A stretch of 57,071 bases of DNA, taken from contig NZ_JARGOQ010000005.1 of NCBI RefSeq assembly GCF_029233945.1, positions 1 through 57,071 of the forward strand, given 5' to 3'. This document shows positions 46,575-56,056 of the stretch, one piece after another; the stretch's first letter is position 1; every line of letters starts with the position of its first letter. Source of the DNA: Sneathiella sp. GTDB lineage: Bacteria > Pseudomonadota > Alphaproteobacteria > Sneathiellales > Sneathiellaceae. The translations under genes and the position numbers were made by a program. The notes below the pieces were generated by a model that was not told where the DNA came from, did not search any database, and saw only the letters and a program-made list of their open reading frames with translations.

Positions 46575-47096
46575 GTGAACTATCCTGGACAAGAGGTTTA
46601 TTTTGATAAAAACGACCTGATTGTAAGTAAAACCGATCTTAAAGGACACATTACTTATGCAAATCATACCTTCCTGGAAATAGCAGGTTATGAGGAAAAT
46701 GAGGTTATCGGGAAACCGCACAACGTTATCCGGCACGGCAATATGCCGCGCGGCGTTTTCGACCTTTTTTGGAACACCATTGGGAAGGGGGAAGAGATTT
46801 TCGCCTATGTGGTAAATTCGACAAAGAACGGAGATCATTACTGGGTCATCGCCCATGTAACGCCAAGCTATCAAAATGGCAATGTTTCGGGATACCACTC
46901 CACCCGCCGCGTGCCCAACCCGCGAACAATCAAAGAGGTTATTGAGCCGCTTTACACAGAGTTGAACGACATCGAAAGCGCCTCTAGTAACCGCAAGGAA
47001 GGCATTCAGAAATCTGTTAGTCGCCTTGAGGAAATTTTGACGGAAAAAGGATTGAGCTACAACGAGTTTGCGGCATCCTTGATGAAGGAGCAGTAA
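46575..47096 (+). CDS. Aer-like PAS domain protein
   Basis: 173 residues. The PAS core resembles that of the aerotaxis receptor Aer: [53 protein letters not shown] and [34 protein letters not shown], including the NGDHYW and RHxxMP phrases linked to FAD binding in Aer. No HAMP, membrane or signalling domain follows; the C-terminus is a short helix. The chemoreceptor gene starts one base after the stop. The inferred role is a separate redox/oxygen-sensing subunit for that receptor. Start GTG 46575 with GGAGAAAG upstream. Confidence 0.88.
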
Positions 47097-47097
47097 G

Positions 47098-48222
47098 ATG
47101 AACATGGAACTGAAAATAGACGCAACCGACACTTTGGGCGTTGCTCCTGAGCGCTTGCAGGAAATCCTGGAAGTCGCGGACAACATCTGTCTTGGCAATT
47201 TTGAAAGCCGGATAAAGAATATTCCGGCTGAAGAAGGAATGGAACGCACGCTCTGCACTAAGATCAACGAAATGATCGACCGTGCCGATGCTTACTTGCG
47301 CGAATCCACGGCTTGTCTAGGCTTTATTGCGGAAAATCAGTATTTCCGTCGTATCGCTCCGGAAGGGCTATTGGGCTCTTATGGCGTGGCTGTCGATAAA
47401 ATCAACCGCGCCGCAGATGGTGTTGAGAAAAAAATATCGAAGTTCCACGATGCCGTCACTGCTATTACAACAGCGGCAGGCCAATTGAACACCAGCGCTC
47501 AGTTCATGGGCGACACGGTCAAAAGCACCAGCGAGAAGACAGCGGCCGTTGCCGCCGCCGCAGAAGAGGCTGGCCAGAACACACAAACGGTCGCTTCAGC
47601 CGCTGAGGAACTCAACTCCTCCATTCAAGAGATCAACCGCCAAGTCACCAGCTCAGCGACTATGTCCGGTGAAGCCGTAGCGCAATCTAAAGAAGTCAAT
47701 GATATGGTTGCAAGTCTTTCAGCTGCATCGGAAGAGATTGGCAACGTGGTCAAACTGATCAATAATATCGCCGGGCAAACCAAACTCCTAGCTTTGAATG
47801 CCACAATCGAAGCCGCGCGCGCGGGAGACGCCGGCAAAGGCTTCGCGGTTGTCGCAAGTGAAGTCAAGAGCCTATCCGCAGAGACGGAAAAGGCAACGGA
47901 AGGGATCAGACTACAAGTCGAAGCAATTCAGAAGGCGGCGACAACCGCCGTAGGCTCTATCTCTGACATTAGCAAATCCATTTCCAGTATTAACGAGGTG
48001 TCTTCGGCTATTGCGTCCGCTGTTGAAGAACAAGGTGCCGCAACGCAGGAAATTTCCCGAAATGTACAAGAGGCTGCCTCGGGCGTCCAGCAAGTCACCA
48101 CCAATGTTGGCATCGTAAATGACAATGTCAAAGAGGTCAGTACCAGCTCTGAACAGCTGGTAAGCGTTGCGAGTGAACTCACGCATCAGGCGGAGCTTCT
48201 TACAGAAGCCCTGAACAGCTAA
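47098..48222 (+). CDS. soluble methyl-accepting chemotaxis protein
   Basis: 374 residues without membrane segments. The N-terminal part ([56 protein letters not shown]) resembles the linker found after Aer-type PAS domains. The signalling hairpin tip reads [48 protein letters not shown], which contacts CheA and CheW. There is no C-terminal CheR/CheB tethering pentapeptide; it ends [14 protein letters not shown]. With no membrane anchor or ligand domain, it is probably driven by the PAS protein. A strong terminator begins 30 bases after the stop. Confidence 0.92.
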
Positions 48223-49542: not shown

Positions 49543-49866
49543 ATCAAAACCCTGACGCTTGGGGTATCTTACTATCCATCATTAAGCGGCCCATTTTGTT
49601 CAATCGCATTTGATATTAGCATATCCTTCATCGCCTATTTTGAGGTAAATCAACTCTTCCAATAAAATTTGCCAATGGTGGCCCGCCTACCCATTCTGGC
49701 CCGTGAAAACTCTCTCGACAGAGCGGAAGTAAAGTGCGAACCTTTTCAAATGGTTTGCGTACAAACTAAAGTACGAAAGCCGCAGTCAAGGAAATGCGGG
49801 AGCAAAAGCCAGCACATCCATATTCCCGTCATCTATTTGAAAGCTCACTGGGATATAAACGTGAGA
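49543..49866. other. 324-bp divergent intergenic region
   Basis: It lies between the APC permease (minus) and the APH/kinase gene (plus). An open frame from 49669 runs into the kinase gene, but its encoded leader has no similarity to the family and no Shine-Dalgarno, so I treat it as non-coding. No hairpin or clear promoter stands out. Confidence 0.5.
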
Positions 49867-51432
49867 ATGAACGAGAAAGCTCAGAACATATCGCAGCGAG
49901 AGGTTATCGCGTTTCTTCAAAACCCGGAGAGCTATCCAGCCAAACCAGATACCGTCGATATACATGAAACCCATGGCGCAATGGTCTTTCTTGCGGGTGA
50001 CATGGCCTATAAAATAAAGAAAGCGATCAAATTTCCCTATATGGATTTCTCCACGCTTGCAAAGCGGCGGCATTTTTGCGAACGAGAAATAGCCATTAAT
50101 CAGCCCACCGCCCCGGAAATCTATCTCGGTCTTGTCACTATCACGAAGGAGGCGGATGGCTGCCTGATGCTCGACGGATCCGGGCAAATTGTCGAATGGG
50201 CCGTCAAGATGAGACGATTTGATCAGGAGATGATGCTGGATCAACTCCCGCACGACAAGGTAACAGAAAAAGCACTGATCGAGAGGCTGGCGAAGGCGGT
50301 TTTTGATTACCACCAGCACGCGCCCGCTGAGAGAGCGTCGGATGGTCCCGGGCGGATTCAGCTATTGATAGATGAGCTAAAGGATAGCTTTCGCAAGTCA
50401 CCAGAAATATTCCCGAAGGGGGAAGCCACGCAGTTCGCATCAATGGCAGAGGAACATTTATCTCATGCCCATTATTGCCTGCGCCTTCGGGGACGCCGGG
50501 GATTTATCCGCCGCTGCCATGGCGACCTGCATCTTCGTAATATTGTCCTGATGGATGAAAAGCCCGTTCTTTTTGACGCGTTGGAGTTTGACGAGGAACT
50601 GGCAACGATTGATACCCTCTATGATCTTGCCTTCCTTCTCATGGATCTTGACCAGCGGCACATGAGCCCAAGCGCAAACCAACTGCTGAACCGATATCTT
50701 TATCTGTCCCGCGCGCTGGAGGATATATACGGCATGAAAGCCATGCCACTCTTCCTTGCAATCCGCGCCGGAATACGGGCCATGGTCGCAAATGATCACG
50801 CACAGCAGCTCTCCGGCGGGGTAGCGGATGAGGAACGGACAACGGCGAAGGAATATTTTTCCACCGCCATGCAGTATCTATCTCCAAAAAAGCCCGCGCT
50901 GGTGGCAATTGGCGGATTCTCGGGTACAGGGAAAACCACCCTTGCCTCATTGCTTGCAGGCACGCTGGAACAGGCACCGGGGTTCCTGCATTTCCGCACG
51001 GATCTTGAGCGAAAAGCGCTCTTTAATGTGCCCGAGACGGAACGGCTGGCCCCATCTAGCTATACGCAGGAAGTGAGCGATCAGGTTTATGCCAAACTGC
51101 TGCGCAAAGCCCGGATTGGCCTGAAAGCCAGGCAGCGGATCATTGTTGATGCCGTCTTCTCCAAGGAGAGGGAAAGAGAGGATTTTGAATCTCTCGCCAA
51201 AGAGCTGGGCGTTCCTTTTATTGGTATCTGGCTTGAGGCAGACGAAAAAGTAATTTCAGCGCGGGTTGAGGCCCGAAAGGGCGATGCCTCCGATGCGACA
51301 CCAGCGGTCGTGCACCAACAGATAGAACGCGGTGTTTCCGGTCTGACATGGCATCGGATCAATGCAGGCGGGACCGCGGCCGACAGCCTCCGGCAGGTGC
51401 TCAACATACCCGAAATCTCGGATATCGATTAA
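49867..51432 (+). CDS. bifunctional aminoglycoside phosphotransferase-like / P-loop kinase protein
   Basis: 521 residues. The N-terminal half is a choline/APH-like kinase fold (MVFLAGDMAYKIKKAIKFPYMDFSTLAKRRHFCEREIAIN) with the catalytic loop GFIRRCHGDLHLRNIVLMDEKPVLFDALEFDEELATIDTLYDLAFLLMDL. The C-terminal half is a P-loop nucleotide kinase (LVAIGGFSGTGKTTLASLLAGTLEQA) with an RQRIIVDAVFSKEREREDF segment. Such fusions are common and uncharacterised; antibiotic resistance is not implied. Cytoplasmic. The ATG at 49867 fits the family start; a GTG at 49861 is possible. It converges on the ABC operon with five bases between stops. Confidence 0.87.
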   Translation: MNEKAQNISQREVIAFLQNPESYPAKPDTVDIHETHGAMVFLAGDMAYKIKKAIKFPYMDFSTLAKRRHFCEREIAINQPTAPEIYLGLVTITKEADGCLMLDGSGQIVEWAVKMRRFDQEMMLDQLPHDKVTEKALIERLAKAVFDYHQHAPAERASDGPGRIQLLIDELKDSFRKSPEIFPKGEATQFASMAEEHLSHAHYCLRLRGRRGFIRRCHGDLHLRNIVLMDEKPVLFDALEFDEELATIDTLYDLAFLLMDLDQRHMSPSANQLLNRYLYLSRALEDIYGMKAMPLFLAIRAGIRAMVANDHAQQLSGGVADEERTTAKEYFSTAMQYLSPKKPALVAIGGFSGTGKTTLASLLAGTLEQAPGFLHFRTDLERKALFNVPETERLAPSSYTQEVSDQVYAKLLRKARIGLKARQRIIVDAVFSKEREREDFESLAKELGVPFIGIWLEADEKVISARVEARKGDASDATPAVVHQQIERGVSGLTWHRINAGGTAADSLRQVLNIPEISDID

Positions 51433-51437
51433 CCTTC

Positions 51438-52727
51438 CTAGTCTTCCTTCGGGGCCGCTTTATCGAGATTTTGTGGCGCAAAAACATCTCCAAATGCCCC
51501 TTTGCCGGGGCTCTTGGTTGGTTCCTGAGGTTTTACCGCGCCTGGCCCGCTCTTATCGAGATTGCCCGGATCAAACACATTGCCAAAAGCCCCTTTTCCC
51601 GGGCTTTGTGTGGCTGGTGCGGCTGACTTGCTGCCCCCGAACACATCCGGACCCTGGTGCTGTTTCTGCTGTAGTTCGAGCTGGCGCTTTTCTCGAATGG
51701 CCTTGATCCGCTCTTCCTGGATAAGGCGCTTTTGCTCGCGTACATCCATTTTGCAGACATCCGGGCTGTAGCTCTGGGCGAACCAGAGGGTTGAGGCCCC
51801 GCCGAGCGTCAAAAGTACGAGTATAATTGCAGCCGGATTGCCGCGAAAAATCTTCGGTAGCTGAAATCCGCCTGAGACCGCCGCGACCGGCGCGCCATTG
51901 GCGAGCGCAAGTTGCTGCCGTCGGCGGTAAATTTCGTGGGCGAGCGCACCGAGAATAGTCAGCACGATAATGATAAAGGCAAGCGCGGAAATGGACGGGT
52001 TAATCCCATATCTGACCTTCTGCGCAAGCTCAATGGTCAGGGTTGGAAACTTACCAAAAGTGAAGGTTGTCGTATTGTAGTTCTCAAACGACGCCAAAAA
52101 AGCGAGGACCGCCGCCGAACCTATGGCGGGCTTCATAAAGGGCAGCAAAATCTTTCGGAAGGCCTGCACCTGCGTTGCCCCAAGATCAAGCGCCGCCTCC
52201 GTCAGGCCCGTATCGAAGCGCTGCAGCCGGGCGATAAAGACGAGCATGCAATATGACGCGATAAAAGTCGACTGGCCCAGAATAGTGAGGAAGATACCGT
52301 TATGCAGAATGCCCCCGCTACTCATGCCGAGCATGATGCTGATCCGGTCCCAAAACACGAGGGTGGAAATACCGAGCACCACCCCCGGGATAAGGATCGG
52401 CGCAATAACGATAGTATAGTATGTCGCCCTCAGTTTCGGCCAGATCTGCGTTAGCATCAGGGCGCCGGCAAGCCCCATGATCACGGAGAGAATAACGGTG
52501 CCAATGCCGATAATGAGGCTATTCTCGATGCCGTTCAATATCCGCTCATCATGGGCGAGAACGTCGAACCATTCGAAGGTCAGGCATTCCCAGGGCGTCA
52601 GTTTCGGGAAAGACGGGGAATTGAAGGCGGTAATGCTCATAACGACGAGCGGGCCCAGCAAATATCCAAAAAAGACGACGAGATAGGCGGCAAGAATGAA
52701 TTTGAGGAGAATATTGTTGGTCTTCAT
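51438..52727 (-). CDS. polyamine-type ABC transporter permease with C-terminal extension (PotC/PotI-like)
   Basis: 429 residues, well over the roughly 270 usual for this family. Residues 1-265 are the normal permease with six spans and the EAA loop TEAALDLGATQVQAFRKILLPFMKP. After this come a linker, an extra hydrophobic segment at 298-316 (PAAIILVLLTLGGASTLWF), a charged helix (REQKRLIQEERIKAIREKRQLELQQKQ) and a Pro/Gly-rich tail with two near-identical 18-residue repeats beginning SPGKGAFG at 375 and 406. If the extra segment spans the membrane, the tail is periplasmic. The frame is uninterrupted and the start overlaps the upstream permease by four bases, so this is not an assembly artefact. 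Confidence 0.88.
   Translation of the reverse strand: MKTNNILLKFILAAYLVVFFGYLLGPLVVMSITAFNSPSFPKLTPWECLTFEWFDVLAHDERILNGIENSLIIGIGTVILSVIMGLAGALMLTQIWPKLRATYYTIVIAPILIPGVVLGISTLVFWDRISIMLGMSSGGILHNGIFLTILGQSTFIASYCMLVFIARLQRFDTGLTEAALDLGATQVQAFRKILLPFMKPAIGSAAVLAFLASFENYNTTTFTFGKFPTLTIELAQKVRYGINPSISALAFIIIVLTILGALAHEIYRRRQQLALANGAPVAAVSGGFQLPKIFRGNPAAIILVLLTLGGASTLWFAQSYSPDVCKMDVREQKRLIQEERIKAIREKRQLELQQKQHQGPDVFGGSKSAAPATQSPGKGAFGNVFDPGNLDKSGPGAVKPQEPTKSPGKGAFGDVFAPQNLDKAAPKED
51459..51605 (-). repeat. two-copy coding repeat in the permease tail
   Basis: Two 18-codon units, 51552-51605 and 51459-51512, encode SPGKGAFGNVFDPGNLDK and SPGKGAFGDVFAPQNLDK. They differ at three residues and are 93 bases apart. 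An earlier GPDVFGG at residues 359-365 may be a decayed third unit. Confidence 0.85.
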
Positions 52728-53653
52728 TTACCAATATCTCCTATCTTCACCTTAAACAGCCGCATCATGCTGAGCACGATGATAATACAAGTGACAAGCA
52801 GGACGATGGCAAAGGCCGCACCGCGTGGCCAGTTTCCGCCTGTGTTAAACCACTGATAGATAATCTGCGTAAACCAGAGACTGGAGGGACCGCCCAGAAT
52901 TTGGGGGGCAGCCAGCGCGCCTGCCGAAAGCATAAACACCATCGTGCAGCCCGATGAAATCCCCGGCTTGGCATAAGGGATAACGATTCGCCAATGAATA
53001 CGCCACCAAGGTGCGCCCATGTCGCGCGCCGCCTCGATCTGGTTGCGATCAAGGCTTTCGATCACATTATATATCGGGAAGATCATGAGCAGGATATAGG
53101 CGTACCCAAGCCCCGCATAGAGCGCCACATTTGCTCTGATAAAGTCGACGGGATTGCTGATCAATCCCATAGCCAGCATCATTTCGTTAATCAGGCCGCT
53201 CTCGCCAAAGATAATCCGAAAGGCGAAAGCGCGCAGGATCTCATTAATCCAGTAAGGAATAATCAGCAGCAGCACCAAGATGCGGATGGCCCCACCGCCC
53301 CGTGACTGGCCGAGGTAGTAGGCAAGCGGATAACAAAGCAGGAGATCAAGAATCGTCACGAAAAGGGCGGCAAGCAATGTCCGGCCAAAGACACCGAGAT
53401 CAACAACGTTGTAAGACGTATCCGCACCCGGCGCGCCGAGGACCAGATATTTATAATGCTCAATCGTATAGGTGTCTTTCGGTCCCCCCATTTCCGGCGG
53501 TGGCAGATGATGCCGGAAGGAAAAATCGAGCATGGACAACTGCGGCAGGACAATCAGGATAACAACCCAAAACAAGACCGCCACGAGAAGAAAAGTTCCA
53601 AGGCCGATACCGTTTTTAGCGAAGAAATCTTTGAACAGCTGCCCTACATTCAT
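52724..53653 (-). CDS. polyamine-type ABC transporter permease (PotB/PotH-like)
   Basis: 309 residues, six membrane segments. The permease loop is NQIEAARDMGAPWWRIHWRIVIPYAKPGI, the EAA motif that docks on the ATPase. The periplasmic loop between the first two spans is long (RHHLPPPEMGGPKDTYTIEHYKYLVLGAPGADTSYNVVDLG). Inner membrane; pairs with the downstream permease, with which it overlaps by four bases. ATG 53651-53653 has AGGGG seven bases upstream; a GTG three bases earlier is less likely. Confidence 0.92.
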   Translation of the reverse strand: MNVGQLFKDFFAKNGIGLGTFLLVAVLFWVVILIVLPQLSMLDFSFRHHLPPPEMGGPKDTYTIEHYKYLVLGAPGADTSYNVVDLGVFGRTLLAALFVTILDLLLCYPLAYYLGQSRGGGAIRILVLLLIIPYWINEILRAFAFRIIFGESGLINEMMLAMGLISNPVDFIRANVALYAGLGYAYILLMIFPIYNVIESLDRNQIEAARDMGAPWWRIHWRIVIPYAKPGISSGCTMVFMLSAGALAAPQILGGPSSLWFTQIIYQWFNTGGNWPRGAAFAIVLLVTCIIIVLSMMRLFKVKIGDIGK

Positions 53654-53662
53654 CACGCGCCC

Positions 53663-54775
53663 CTATTCGCTGGCAAGCTCGCCAGCGGGCAACACGATCG
53701 CCTGCTCTGGCACATATTCAAGTGTCAGGTTCATACCTTCCGCCGATTGCCGCTCCTTACCTATGTTCACGAGGGACATCTTGATCTCCTTGCCCTCAGA
53801 ACCTTCAAGGAAGACATTATAAATCTGCCCCTCGAATTCCTCATGCTTGACCATGGCCGCAAAACGGTTCGGCGCTGACGAGATATCCGGGGCGATATTG
53901 AGCGCCTCCGGTCGAACGAACATCATCGCCGGATCGCCAACTTTCAAGCTGCCTTGCACCGTCGTCGCAATGCGCGCCAACAACTCACCTGTCCGATTGG
54001 TGCTGACAAGAGCCATATCTCCATCGATGGATTTTACCTTGCCCCGAAAAACATTATTCTCCCCAACGAAGGAGGCCACAAAGGGCGTCGCCGGATCATT
54101 ATAAACCGTATGGCCGGATCCGATCTGATCGATGATCCCTGCCCGCATGACGGCCACATTATCGGACATCGTCAGTGCCTCGCCCTGATCATGCGTGATA
54201 TAGATGAAGGTGATACCAACGCGCTGCTGAATTTCACGGAGTTCTGTGCGCATATGCTGGCGGAGTTTTAAATCCAGCGCGGAAAGCGGCTCATCGAGCA
54301 AGAGAACATCCGGCTCCGCGCAAAGCGCTCTGGCAATGGCAACACGCTGTTTCTGCCCCCCGGACAGTTCGGAGGGGAGCTTTTCTCCCTGATCCGGCAG
54401 GGCGATCATATCAAGAAGCTCGTCGGCCCGCTTGCGCCGTTCGGCCTTGCTGGCGCCCTTCACCTCCATGGAGAAAGTAATATTTTCCCAAATTTTCATC
54501 AGGGGAAAGAGGGCGAGATTTTGGAAAATAAGGGCCGTAGGCCGCTTGTTCGGTCCGATCCCGGCCATATCCCGGCCGCCAATCCTGACATTGCCCTCAC
54601 TTGGTTCCAGAAAACCCGATACCGAACGCAGGATCGTCGTCTTGCCGCAGCCGGACGGCCCAAGGAAAGAGAAGAACTCCCCGCCCTTTATATTCACATT
54701 AGCTTCACGAACAGCAACGAAATCACCAAACCTGATCCAGACATTTTCCAGATCGACATCAACGCCTTTGGTCAT
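53663..54775 (-). CDS. polyamine-type ABC transporter ATP-binding protein (PotA-like)
   Basis: 370 residues. Walker A FLGPSGCGKTTILRSVSGF, signature LSGGQKQRVAIARAL, Walker B DVLLLDEPLSALDLKLRQHMR, the H-loop THDQGEALTMSD, and a C-terminal TOBE regulatory region (PAMMFVRPEALNIAPDISSAPNRFAAMVKHEEFEGQIYNVFL). It powers import through the two permeases. It begins about 110 bases after the binding-protein gene, separated by a stem-loop, and ends nine bases before the first permease start. Confidence 0.93.
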   Translation of the reverse strand: MTKGVDVDLENVWIRFGDFVAVREANVNIKGGEFFSFLGPSGCGKTTILRSVSGFLEPSEGNVRIGGRDMAGIGPNKRPTALIFQNLALFPLMKIWENITFSMEVKGASKAERRKRADELLDMIALPDQGEKLPSELSGGQKQRVAIARALCAEPDVLLLDEPLSALDLKLRQHMRTELREIQQRVGITFIYITHDQGEALTMSDNVAVMRAGIIDQIGSGHTVYNDPATPFVASFVGENNVFRGKVKSIDGDMALVSTNRTGELLARIATTVQGSLKVGDPAMMFVRPEALNIAPDISSAPNRFAAMVKHEEFEGQIYNVFLEGSEGKEIKMSLVNIGKERQSAEGMNLTLEYVPEQAIVLPAGELASE

Positions 54776-54886: not shown

Positions 54887-56056
54887 TTAAGAGCTCTTGA
54901 ACTTGTTCACATATTCGGTACGCACAGCGGCATACCAAGGGGCCTGTGGTGGCCACGGGTTCAGATTGCTAAGCGAGTCGCCCGGATAGGCATCCGCAAA
55001 GTTCTTCTTATAGGCATCGCCCGCAAATTGATCCGCCCCAAGGACAGGCGAGTTATAGCCGTGGGAATCAATCGCCTTACCGGCATTCTTGGCGTCGTAG
55101 GAGAATTTAATGAATTCGTAGACCTGATCCATATTCTTCGCCCCGATCGGCAGCGACATGCCGTCAACCCAGGCCATCGCCCCTTCAACCGGCGCCTGAT
55201 ACATAACCGGATCGCCAGCGGTCTTAAGTGACATTGGTGGACCATCCCACGTCTGGCCGACGACGACACCTTCGTTCAGCAAGCCATTTTTCTGTGTGTC
55301 TGCATCGTTCCAAAGCAGCTTGATATTGTTTTTTCGGGCAATGCACCAATCCGTCACCTTTTCCCAGATCGGCCGCATGGTCTCTTCAGATTCATACGCT
55401 TTCCACATATCGCCCGGATTAAGCTCACCGGTCGTTTCCATATACAAGCCCGCGCACAGCATCATGGAATGCGGGCGTCCCATGGTCTTGCCGGCGTTCT
55501 CTTCAGCCCAGACATCCCCATAGCTCGGCGCGGTGCCGGCCGGCGTCCATTTATCAGTCCGCCAGGCAACGCCTTCCGTTCCCCAGATGTGAGGAAGCCA
55601 GTGAGACCCCTTTCCTTCAAAGTCCCAGTCTTTGGTGCCGATGGCAGCCATCGTCGGATTGACTTTATCGACCGGAACACGGCTCATGTCCCAAGGCTGC
55701 AGGAGTTCAAGCGGCCCCCACTCCAGCCCCTGGTTATTTGTCGGCGATACAATGTCAAAGCCCTGACCCTTGTTCGCCTTCATCTTGTTGATGATTTCCT
55801 CATTCGAGCCAATGCCCGTGTAATTGATTTTGATACCCGTTTCTTTTGCAAAGTCCGCAATGAAGGGTTCCGGCAGGTAATCCGACCACATCAGGATGTT
55901 AATTTCCCCGGAAGAGGAAAACGCATTTTTGACAATCGCGGGTCCGGCAACGGTAAAGGCGCCGACAGCTGTCGCTGTTTTCAAGACATTCCGGCGGCTG
56001 ACTGTTGTTGCCGATTTTCCATCTGTCTGAGTGGGTTTTTGAGATTTAACGGTCAT
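54887..56056 (-). CDS. extracellular solute-binding protein, polyamine type (PotD/PotF-like), Tat-exported
   Basis: 389 residues. The N-terminus has a twin-arginine signal, VSRRNVLKTATAVGAFTVAGPAIV, so it is probably exported folded. The mature protein has the polyamine-binding-protein phrase INILMWSDYLPEPFIADFAKETGIKINYTGIGSNEEIINKMKANKGQGFDIVSPT. Later segments include TWDGPPMSLKTAGDPVMYQAPVEGAMAWVDGMSLPIGAKNMDQVYEFIKFSYD. It captures the substrate in the periplasm and delivers it to the permeases. Putrescine or spermidine is likely, though other cations or amino acids are possible. First gene of the ABC operon. Confidence 0.9.
   Translation of the reverse strand: MTVKSQKPTQTDGKSATTVSRRNVLKTATAVGAFTVAGPAIVKNAFSSSGEINILMWSDYLPEPFIADFAKETGIKINYTGIGSNEEIINKMKANKGQGFDIVSPTNNQGLEWGPLELLQPWDMSRVPVDKVNPTMAAIGTKDWDFEGKGSHWLPHIWGTEGVAWRTDKWTPAGTAPSYGDVWAEENAGKTMGRPHSMMLCAGLYMETTGELNPGDMWKAYESEETMRPIWEKVTDWCIARKNNIKLLWNDADTQKNGLLNEGVVVGQTWDGPPMSLKTAGDPVMYQAPVEGAMAWVDGMSLPIGAKNMDQVYEFIKFSYDAKNAGKAIDSHGYNSPVLGADQFAGDAYKKNFADAYPGDSLSNLNPWPPQAPWYAAVRTEYVNKFKSS

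Follow-up and report, generated by a model that had tools for sequence, protein, structure and literature searches.

The window, the whole 57,071 nucleotide stretch of Sneathiella DNA that was analysed, carries four genes on the reverse strand that encode a solute-binding protein, an ATPase, a PotB-like permease and, as the last of the four, a PotC-like permease with an extra C-terminal tail. The features of the locus, with the evidence on which each was assigned, are as follows.

54887..56056, reverse strand: PotD-fold solute-binding protein with a Tat-like twin-arginine signal, the proposed partner of the tail (domain and fold matches)
53663..54775, reverse strand: PotA/PhnT2-like ATPase (open reading frame and domain matches)
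52724..53656, reverse strand: PotB-like permease partner (open reading frame and domain matches)
51438..52727, reverse strand: PotC-like ABC importer permease with extra C-terminal tail, 429 aa (open reading frame, PF00528, match to E. coli PotC)
51837..52727, reverse strand: canonical six-helix core and cytoplasmic loop of this permease, residues 1-297 (hydropathy; invariant columns E177-A184)
52584..52586, reverse strand: Cys48 in the first periplasmic loop (PWECLTFEW), proposed disulfide partner (co-occurrence with Cys325)
51777..51836, reverse strand: TM7, an extra predicted transmembrane segment, residues 298-317 (hydropathy; AF2 helix 298-319)
51753..51755, reverse strand: Cys325, directly past TM7 (SPDVCK) (tail alignment; co-occurrence with Cys48)
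51657..51761, reverse strand: charged helix, residues 323-357, probably periplasmic (AF2 helix 323-357, block pLDDT 74-88)
51552..51605, reverse strand: repeat 1, residues 375-392, SPGKGAFGNVFDPGNLDK (motif pattern, shuffles, pN)
51459..51512, reverse strand: repeat 2, residues 406-423, SPGKGAFGDVFAPQNLDK (motif pattern, shuffles, pN)

The tailed permease is encoded by an uninterrupted reading frame of 429 aa (51438-52727, reverse strand). PF00528 spans residues 89-270 (44.4 bits against a gathering cut-off of 26.4), the E. coli PotC chain 8y5f_C is matched with a phmmer E value of 5.9e-25, and the EAA-type region from E177 to A184, which we take to be the coupling motif, is invariant across 35 homologues. 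The score against PRK09500, the NCBIfam equivalog for spermidine/putrescine PotC, is 118.5 bits and lies below the cut-off of 326. To judge from these matches the protein is a Type I ABC importer permease of the PotC/PotI-like (BPD_transp_1) kind. The E. coli PotC chains that it matches are 249 and 264 aa long, and the additional length here amounts to about 160 residues if counted from residue 270 or so, or to 112 residues (318-429) past TM7.

Seven hydrophobic peaks are present, so that by prediction the permease departs from the arrangement of six helices and a cytoplasmic C-terminus. The seventh (residues 299-317) has a 19-residue mean of 2.02, higher than those of the predicted TM4 and TM5 (1.72 and 1.83); it follows a positively charged cytoplasmic loop (264-298) and precedes a tail (318-429) with 18 Lys and Arg and 15 Asp and Glu residues. 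An AF2 monomer model, which is weak (35 alignment rows, mean pLDDT 61.2, pTM 0.49), places about 70 residues of low predicted order beyond the charged helix and leaves the repeats disordered. This anatomy, which can be read from the sequence itself, agrees with the original prediction, in which an extra hydrophobic segment, a charged helix and two 18-residue repeats differing at three positions were accurately described in a clean frame; within the window neither a second open reading frame nor a frameshift joins two genes at this point.

Two neighbouring loci are also of note. The convergent gene at 49852-51429 on the forward strand encodes an APH-type kinase-like domain fused to an AAA_33 P-loop kinase domain (PF01636, PF13671), and at 46575-48222 on the same strand a short PAS-like protein is followed by a methyl-accepting chemotaxis-type protein, an arrangement that by eye resembles a split receptor.

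Similarity and conservation of the repeats

The two repeats are identical at 15 of 18 residues, a similarity reached in none of 500 shuffles of the tail, in which the best gapless pair of 18-mers never exceeded eight identities. A recent duplication had been offered as one explanation, and we reject it for the window gene on comparison of the repeats. When 18-residue units shifted by one residue are used, the window repeats share 14 residues with each other, whereas repeat 1 shares 17, 18 and 17 with repeat 1 of the homologues L033, L032 and L162, and repeat 2 shares 15, 17 and 17 with repeat 2 of the same three proteins. The window repeats further show synonymous codon differences at seven of the 15 positions with the same residue, and distant genera most often have two copies. 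The repeats are old, the same tail occurring across several alphaproteobacterial lineages. Fresh duplication or homogenization does appear to occur in other homologues, as the contrary cases of L161 and L034 illustrate, with within-protein copies identical at 17 and 16 of 18 residues respectively.

The motif has the consensus FG-x-[VI]F-x-P-x-N-L and is usually present in one to three copies. Among 97 tail-bearing proteins, a redundant set in which some genomes occur twice and copies were scored by one pattern, 76 have two copies, 10 have three, seven have one and four have none; two of the four are the frame-changed Sneathiella glossodoripedis permease, and the others carry a divergent (L017) or degenerate (L089) motif. 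Deep members of the group contain the variants TPFGGVFAPGGL, SSVFAPSNL, SPFGGAFGGDALRP and SPFGNNIFSPENL. In an alignment of 38 tails, conservation is at least 90% in the first-unit columns F, G, F, P and L and in the second-unit columns F, G and F; an entropy table in which F and G were fixed by construction was left out for those columns. Against six close relatives, pN is 0.049 in the repeats, close to the 0.044 of the core, whereas the linkers reach 0.243; pS is high (0.68 to 0.82), with synonymous sites near saturation and dN/dS computable for the core only. This conservation shows, at the level of sequence, that the repeat arm is under selection, and the earlier suggestion of selection on a short motif is borne out by both the conserved columns and the repeat pN. 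A tail that is a passive spacer or other extension of low value, its repeats maintained by drift and slippage, would agree with the variable copy number, the very similar copies in L161 and L034, and the fast evolution of the linkers; with repeat pN near that of the core at almost saturated synonymous sites, motif columns kept across clades and the cysteines paired, we consider such a spacer very improbable.

Paired cysteines, topology and distribution

If the N-terminus is inside, hydropathy places both cysteines, Cys48 and Cys325, at the outer face of the membrane. Among 139 proteins, a redundant set in which several genomes occur twice, 109 have both cysteines, 12 tailed proteins have neither, 17 are tail-less and lack Cys48, and none is mixed, the one remaining protein being a fragment without position 48; the corresponding numbers for unique cores are 95, 12 and 17. 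The tailed proteins without cysteines have Val or Ile at position 48 and Ala at 325; in the tail-less proteins, position 48 is Gly, Ser or Thr. Two of the six patterns used in the GTDB-species scan, any single one of which sufficed, contain these cysteines. A quick tree of 79 cores was made with column 48 removed and came with a warning that the tail-less rows include long branches; a single branch (SH-aLRT 97) separates these rows from the rest, and the rows without cysteines form one clade (99). Cys48 changes twice and Cys325 once on this tree, compared with eight changes for the control Cys160, the pairing thus resting on two independent events.

The co-occurrence of Cys325 with an outside Cys48 makes a Cys48-Cys325 disulfide likely and strongly indicates an extra membrane helix with the tail in the periplasm, as was originally proposed and as the seven predicted membrane segments and the positive loop also suggest. 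Such a disulfide, if formed, would itself place the tail outside and fix its base beside a periplasmic loop of the permease. For the tail to be cytoplasmic and act on the ATPase, the TM7 segment could not cross the membrane, which we find scarcely credible: the tail is rich in charge, as might be expected of such a location, but the segment is predicted to be helical and is more hydrophobic than TM4 or TM5, and Cys325 accompanies a cysteine that lies outside. The clade without cysteines (L046, L047, L049, L050, L052, L056, L057, L058, L061, L067, L069 and L072) keeps both tail and repeats, and thus the staple seems to be dispensable in that clade. It consists mostly of Hyphomicrobiales-type assemblies but also includes L056 and L061, labelled Amylibacter and Gammaproteobacteria, which are perhaps mis-binned metagenome contigs.

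Whole-protein searches of 95 genomes gave a tail-bearing best match in 14 of the 24 genomes of Sneathiella (the source genome included) and in three further members of the class (G025, G064 and G065); the best match in G004 and G012, of the same genus, is a tail-less relative with about 55% identity. The GTDB-species contig scan, which is biased towards the tail because the nearest relatives were kept and two of the six patterns lie in it, yielded 278 relatives, the best 80 of which are all tail-bearing (S. glossodoripedis with a frame change) and come from Sneathiella, Ruegeria, Roseovarius, Aliiroseovarius, Litoreibacter and many Rhodospirillales and Hyphomicrobiales assemblies. A profile of the tail alone, the search advised at the outset, was built from 38 of 40 selected tails and at an E value of 0.01 matched 15 of 385 genomes of the class and 10 of 398 of the phylum, samples that overlap; 13 and six of these matches respectively, including all the strong ones, are this permease, and all are in Alphaproteobacteria. 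Matches at 5e-5 or worse look unrelated by eye, a SecA-like C-terminus being one example, and we rejected them as evidence that the tail occurs in different proteins or beyond the class. Within one order, 15 of 150 genomes matched the profile at 1e-5, and the order search around G025 covered one genome; within one family, seven of 61 genomes have a match at 1e-60, four of them tailed and three tail-less. Many genera thus conserve the tail, which appears to be old and scattered and to occur in a minority of genomes. It forms one clade across several alphaproteobacterial lineages, with a single origin on the tree made.

The tails of the homologues inspected are in frame with the permease, the sole exception being S. 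glossodoripedis (L014 and L065, from the same genome, and L158), where the frame changes inside the tail. This draft assembly has three motif copies in another frame and its binding-protein gene is also split, reflecting either assembly error or recent change. Neither fusion of two genes nor a frameshift accounts for the tail, and both were rejected. We have not found this arrangement described in the sources searched: three tails contain no Pfam domain at an E value of 1, the tail profile gave six chance-level matches to PDB sequences (best E 0.089), no paper on the tail was found among titles and the starts of abstracts in the open-access literature with the terms used, and 11 of 11 records of such permeases in a plasmid collection are named merely 'ABC transporter permease'.

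The binding protein, the substrate and the proposed arm

The repeats were also sought in other proteins. The exact degenerate DNA pattern for FG.[VI]F.P.N[LF] has 29 sites in 60 genomes, located in 14 genomes that are all Sneathiella, and a control pattern has one site in the same 60. Twenty-seven of the 29 are in the permease tail region, three of these belonging to S. glossodoripedis and read in its other frame; the remaining two fall in stop-to-stop frames 57 and 92 codons long, one of which is antisense to a 912-codon open reading frame. No other convincing gene with the motif was found with this one exact pattern in the 60 genomes; the pattern misses variants, having no site in G025, which carries YKSIFAPQNL. 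Within the genus the motif therefore seems to be confined to this gene, and the partner of the tail is probably part of the transporter itself. An arm that instead anchors the importer elsewhere in the envelope, to peptidoglycan or to an outer-membrane or periplasmic protein, and for example places it near a porin, would make use of the long reach of the charged helix and the 70 or so residues of low predicted order, and is compatible with the restriction of strong tail-profile matches to a set of Alphaproteobacteria. A general partner of this kind might, however, be expected to share the motif with other proteins, none of which was found by the one exact pattern in 60 genomes, and the strong profile matches are this permease; we regard envelope anchoring as quite unlikely.

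Within the transporter, the binding proteins of tail-bearing systems show unusual conservation. Pairwise identities from 34 non-redundant operons, taken where the PotB-like proteins are 55-65% identical, show binding proteins 64-66% identical in tail-bearing pairs, 45-48% in mixed pairs and 49% in tail-less pairs (five pairs); the ATPases, at 57-60%, 59-60% and 65-66% respectively, lack this pattern, and at PotB identities of 65-70% the gap between binding proteins is small (69% in tail-bearing pairs and 65% in three tail-less pairs). Twelve pocket positions were chosen by PotD alignment and conservation, a choice that favours agreement. The binding proteins of L134 and L135, tail-less members of the same genus, keep all 12, yet of 142 positions with at least 97% conservation across 82 tail-bearing binding proteins they keep 103 and differ at 39. 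The differences are most frequent around positions 140-160, 200-220 and 320-340. The more distant tail-less L136 and L137 keep 10 of the 12, and 93 and 91 of the 142. The ligand pocket alone thus does not seem to explain the constraint on the tail-bearing binding proteins. In E. coli, PotD docks onto PotB and PotC (PMC11414716, in excerpt), and six of 37 tail-specific positions (81, 82, 255, 256, 259 and 260) fall within or next to segments that align with the docking residues of PotD, so docking on the permease appears to account for part of the conservation. The tail may account for the rest, although the extra conservation could reflect substrate or docking instead.

The substrate itself is probably not a canonical polyamine. 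The binding protein has the PotD/PotF fold and keeps the four aromatic ligand residues of PotD (W57, Y60, W270 and W296). The acidic ligand residues of PotD, which are E36, D168, E171 and D257 in an excerpt of PMC11414716, align with D59, H196, M199 and D298, so that two of the four acids are lost, and His196 and Met199 are near Arg194. We rejected a canonical polyamine importer on these ligand residues. The pocket would suit a ligand with an amino group at one end and an anionic group opposite. The substrate probably resembles an omega-amino acid, and such an acid or an aminoalkyl phosphonate or sulfonate is a reasonable guess. Neighbouring genes give no more than a lean in this direction. 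The survey covered 75 loci of at least 10.5 kb, from 87 tail-bearing loci with the operon, with queries taken from L042 and L058 and self-matches hence counted; it gave low counts, with a MocR-like regulator at 11 loci, an AptA-like omega-aminotransferase at six, an aldehyde dehydrogenase like the phosphonoacetaldehyde type at five (four at just 27-34% identity), and alanine dehydrogenase and phosphonoacetate hydrolase at one each. Deep tail-bearing operons adjoin MocR-type regulators and AptA-type omega-aminotransferases; the L042 operon is also near alanine dehydrogenase, and that of L058 adjoins phosphonoacetaldehyde dehydrogenase and phosphonoacetate hydrolase. Tail-less loci have the MocR-like gene in two of 13 cases and the AptA-like gene in none of 13; on the deep branch (L143-L151, leaving out L147, which is short) the counts are eight of eight and five of eight.

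We propose that the tail is a disordered periplasmic arm, stapled by a disulfide, whose short motifs bind the soluble binding protein of the importer. The architecture is well supported, and we infer the partner. A PotABCD-type importer permease would have gained TM7 once in the Alphaproteobacteria, carrying its C-terminus into the periplasm, where a Cys325-Cys48 disulfide would pin the tail at its base to the outside of the permease and the charged helix of about 35 residues would raise it off the membrane. The disordered linker would then display its motif copies, most likely for the separately encoded binding protein, which would be kept near its docking site by a non-covalent 'fly-fishing' tether to which several motifs add avidity. 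The earlier suggestion of a tether or binding site for the solute-binding protein stands as the best inference, through the indirect support of motif confinement and binding-protein conservation, and we give the whole proposal, including the identity of the partner, about an even chance of being correct. It is more tentative that these permeases define an importer family recruiting its soluble binding protein through repeated motifs on a stapled arm, possibly with a redox switch, and switching by the staple is speculation. The arm could also be periplasmic with its motifs docking on the periplasmic loops of PotB and PotC as a gate or latch, perhaps redox-regulated through Cys48 and Cys325. The apparent absence of the motif from other genes, as judged with the pattern used, is compatible with any partner inside the transporter, and the tail base is on the side of the first periplasmic loop; however, tandem copies on a long linker are better explained by avidity for a partner that moves than by one gate, the number of copies is variable, and the weak AF2 monomer leaves the repeats disordered, and we consider docking on the permease itself unlikely. 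Should motif binding to the binding protein be correct, sequences such as FGNVFDPGNL could serve as portable periplasmic docking tags, and Ruegeria and Sneathiella, which can be cultivated, are suitable hosts for testing the system.

Comparison with known importers

The E. coli PotD-PotABC spermidine importer (8y5f, 8y5i) has the same four kinds of component, its PotC being 23-25% identical to the tailed permease in Foldseek alignments. As described in an excerpt of PMC11414716, PotC has six helices and no such tail, whereas TM7 and the tail are predicted here, and the replacement of PotD D168 and E171 by His196 and Met199 means that polyamine specificity is not expected. The scoop loops of MalG, SugB and PotC (PMC11414716, same excerpt) are likewise permease elements that reach toward a periplasmic binding protein; these lie between TM5 and TM6, while the element described here is an added helix, a stalk and a disordered repeat tail.

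Other importers hold their binding protein at the membrane by different means. The binding protein here is a separate open reading frame (54887-56056) with twin arginines, Tat models scoring just under the cut-off, and no cysteine in its first 50 residues, and is thus by sequence neither fused nor lipidated. GlnPQ is an importer with covalently tethered binding domains, as is OpuA; both tethers are covalent, whereas the tether proposed here is a short motif on a disordered arm that acts on the product of a separate gene. The effect shared with OpuA (PMC11065425, in excerpt) would be a high local concentration of binding domains at the permease. The lipid-anchored neisserial MetQ (PMC8416018, in excerpt) shares the idea that anchoring near the membrane favours contact with the transporter; its anchor is on the binding protein, whereas here the anchor would sit on the permease and the binding protein has a Tat-like signal. 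The tailed permease is a PotC-like variant that belongs to neither the fusion nor the lipid-anchor group. If the motif tether is correct, it would, to our knowledge, represent a defined short linear motif working in the bacterial periplasm, and a further route, besides fusion and lipidation, to raising the local concentration of a binding protein.
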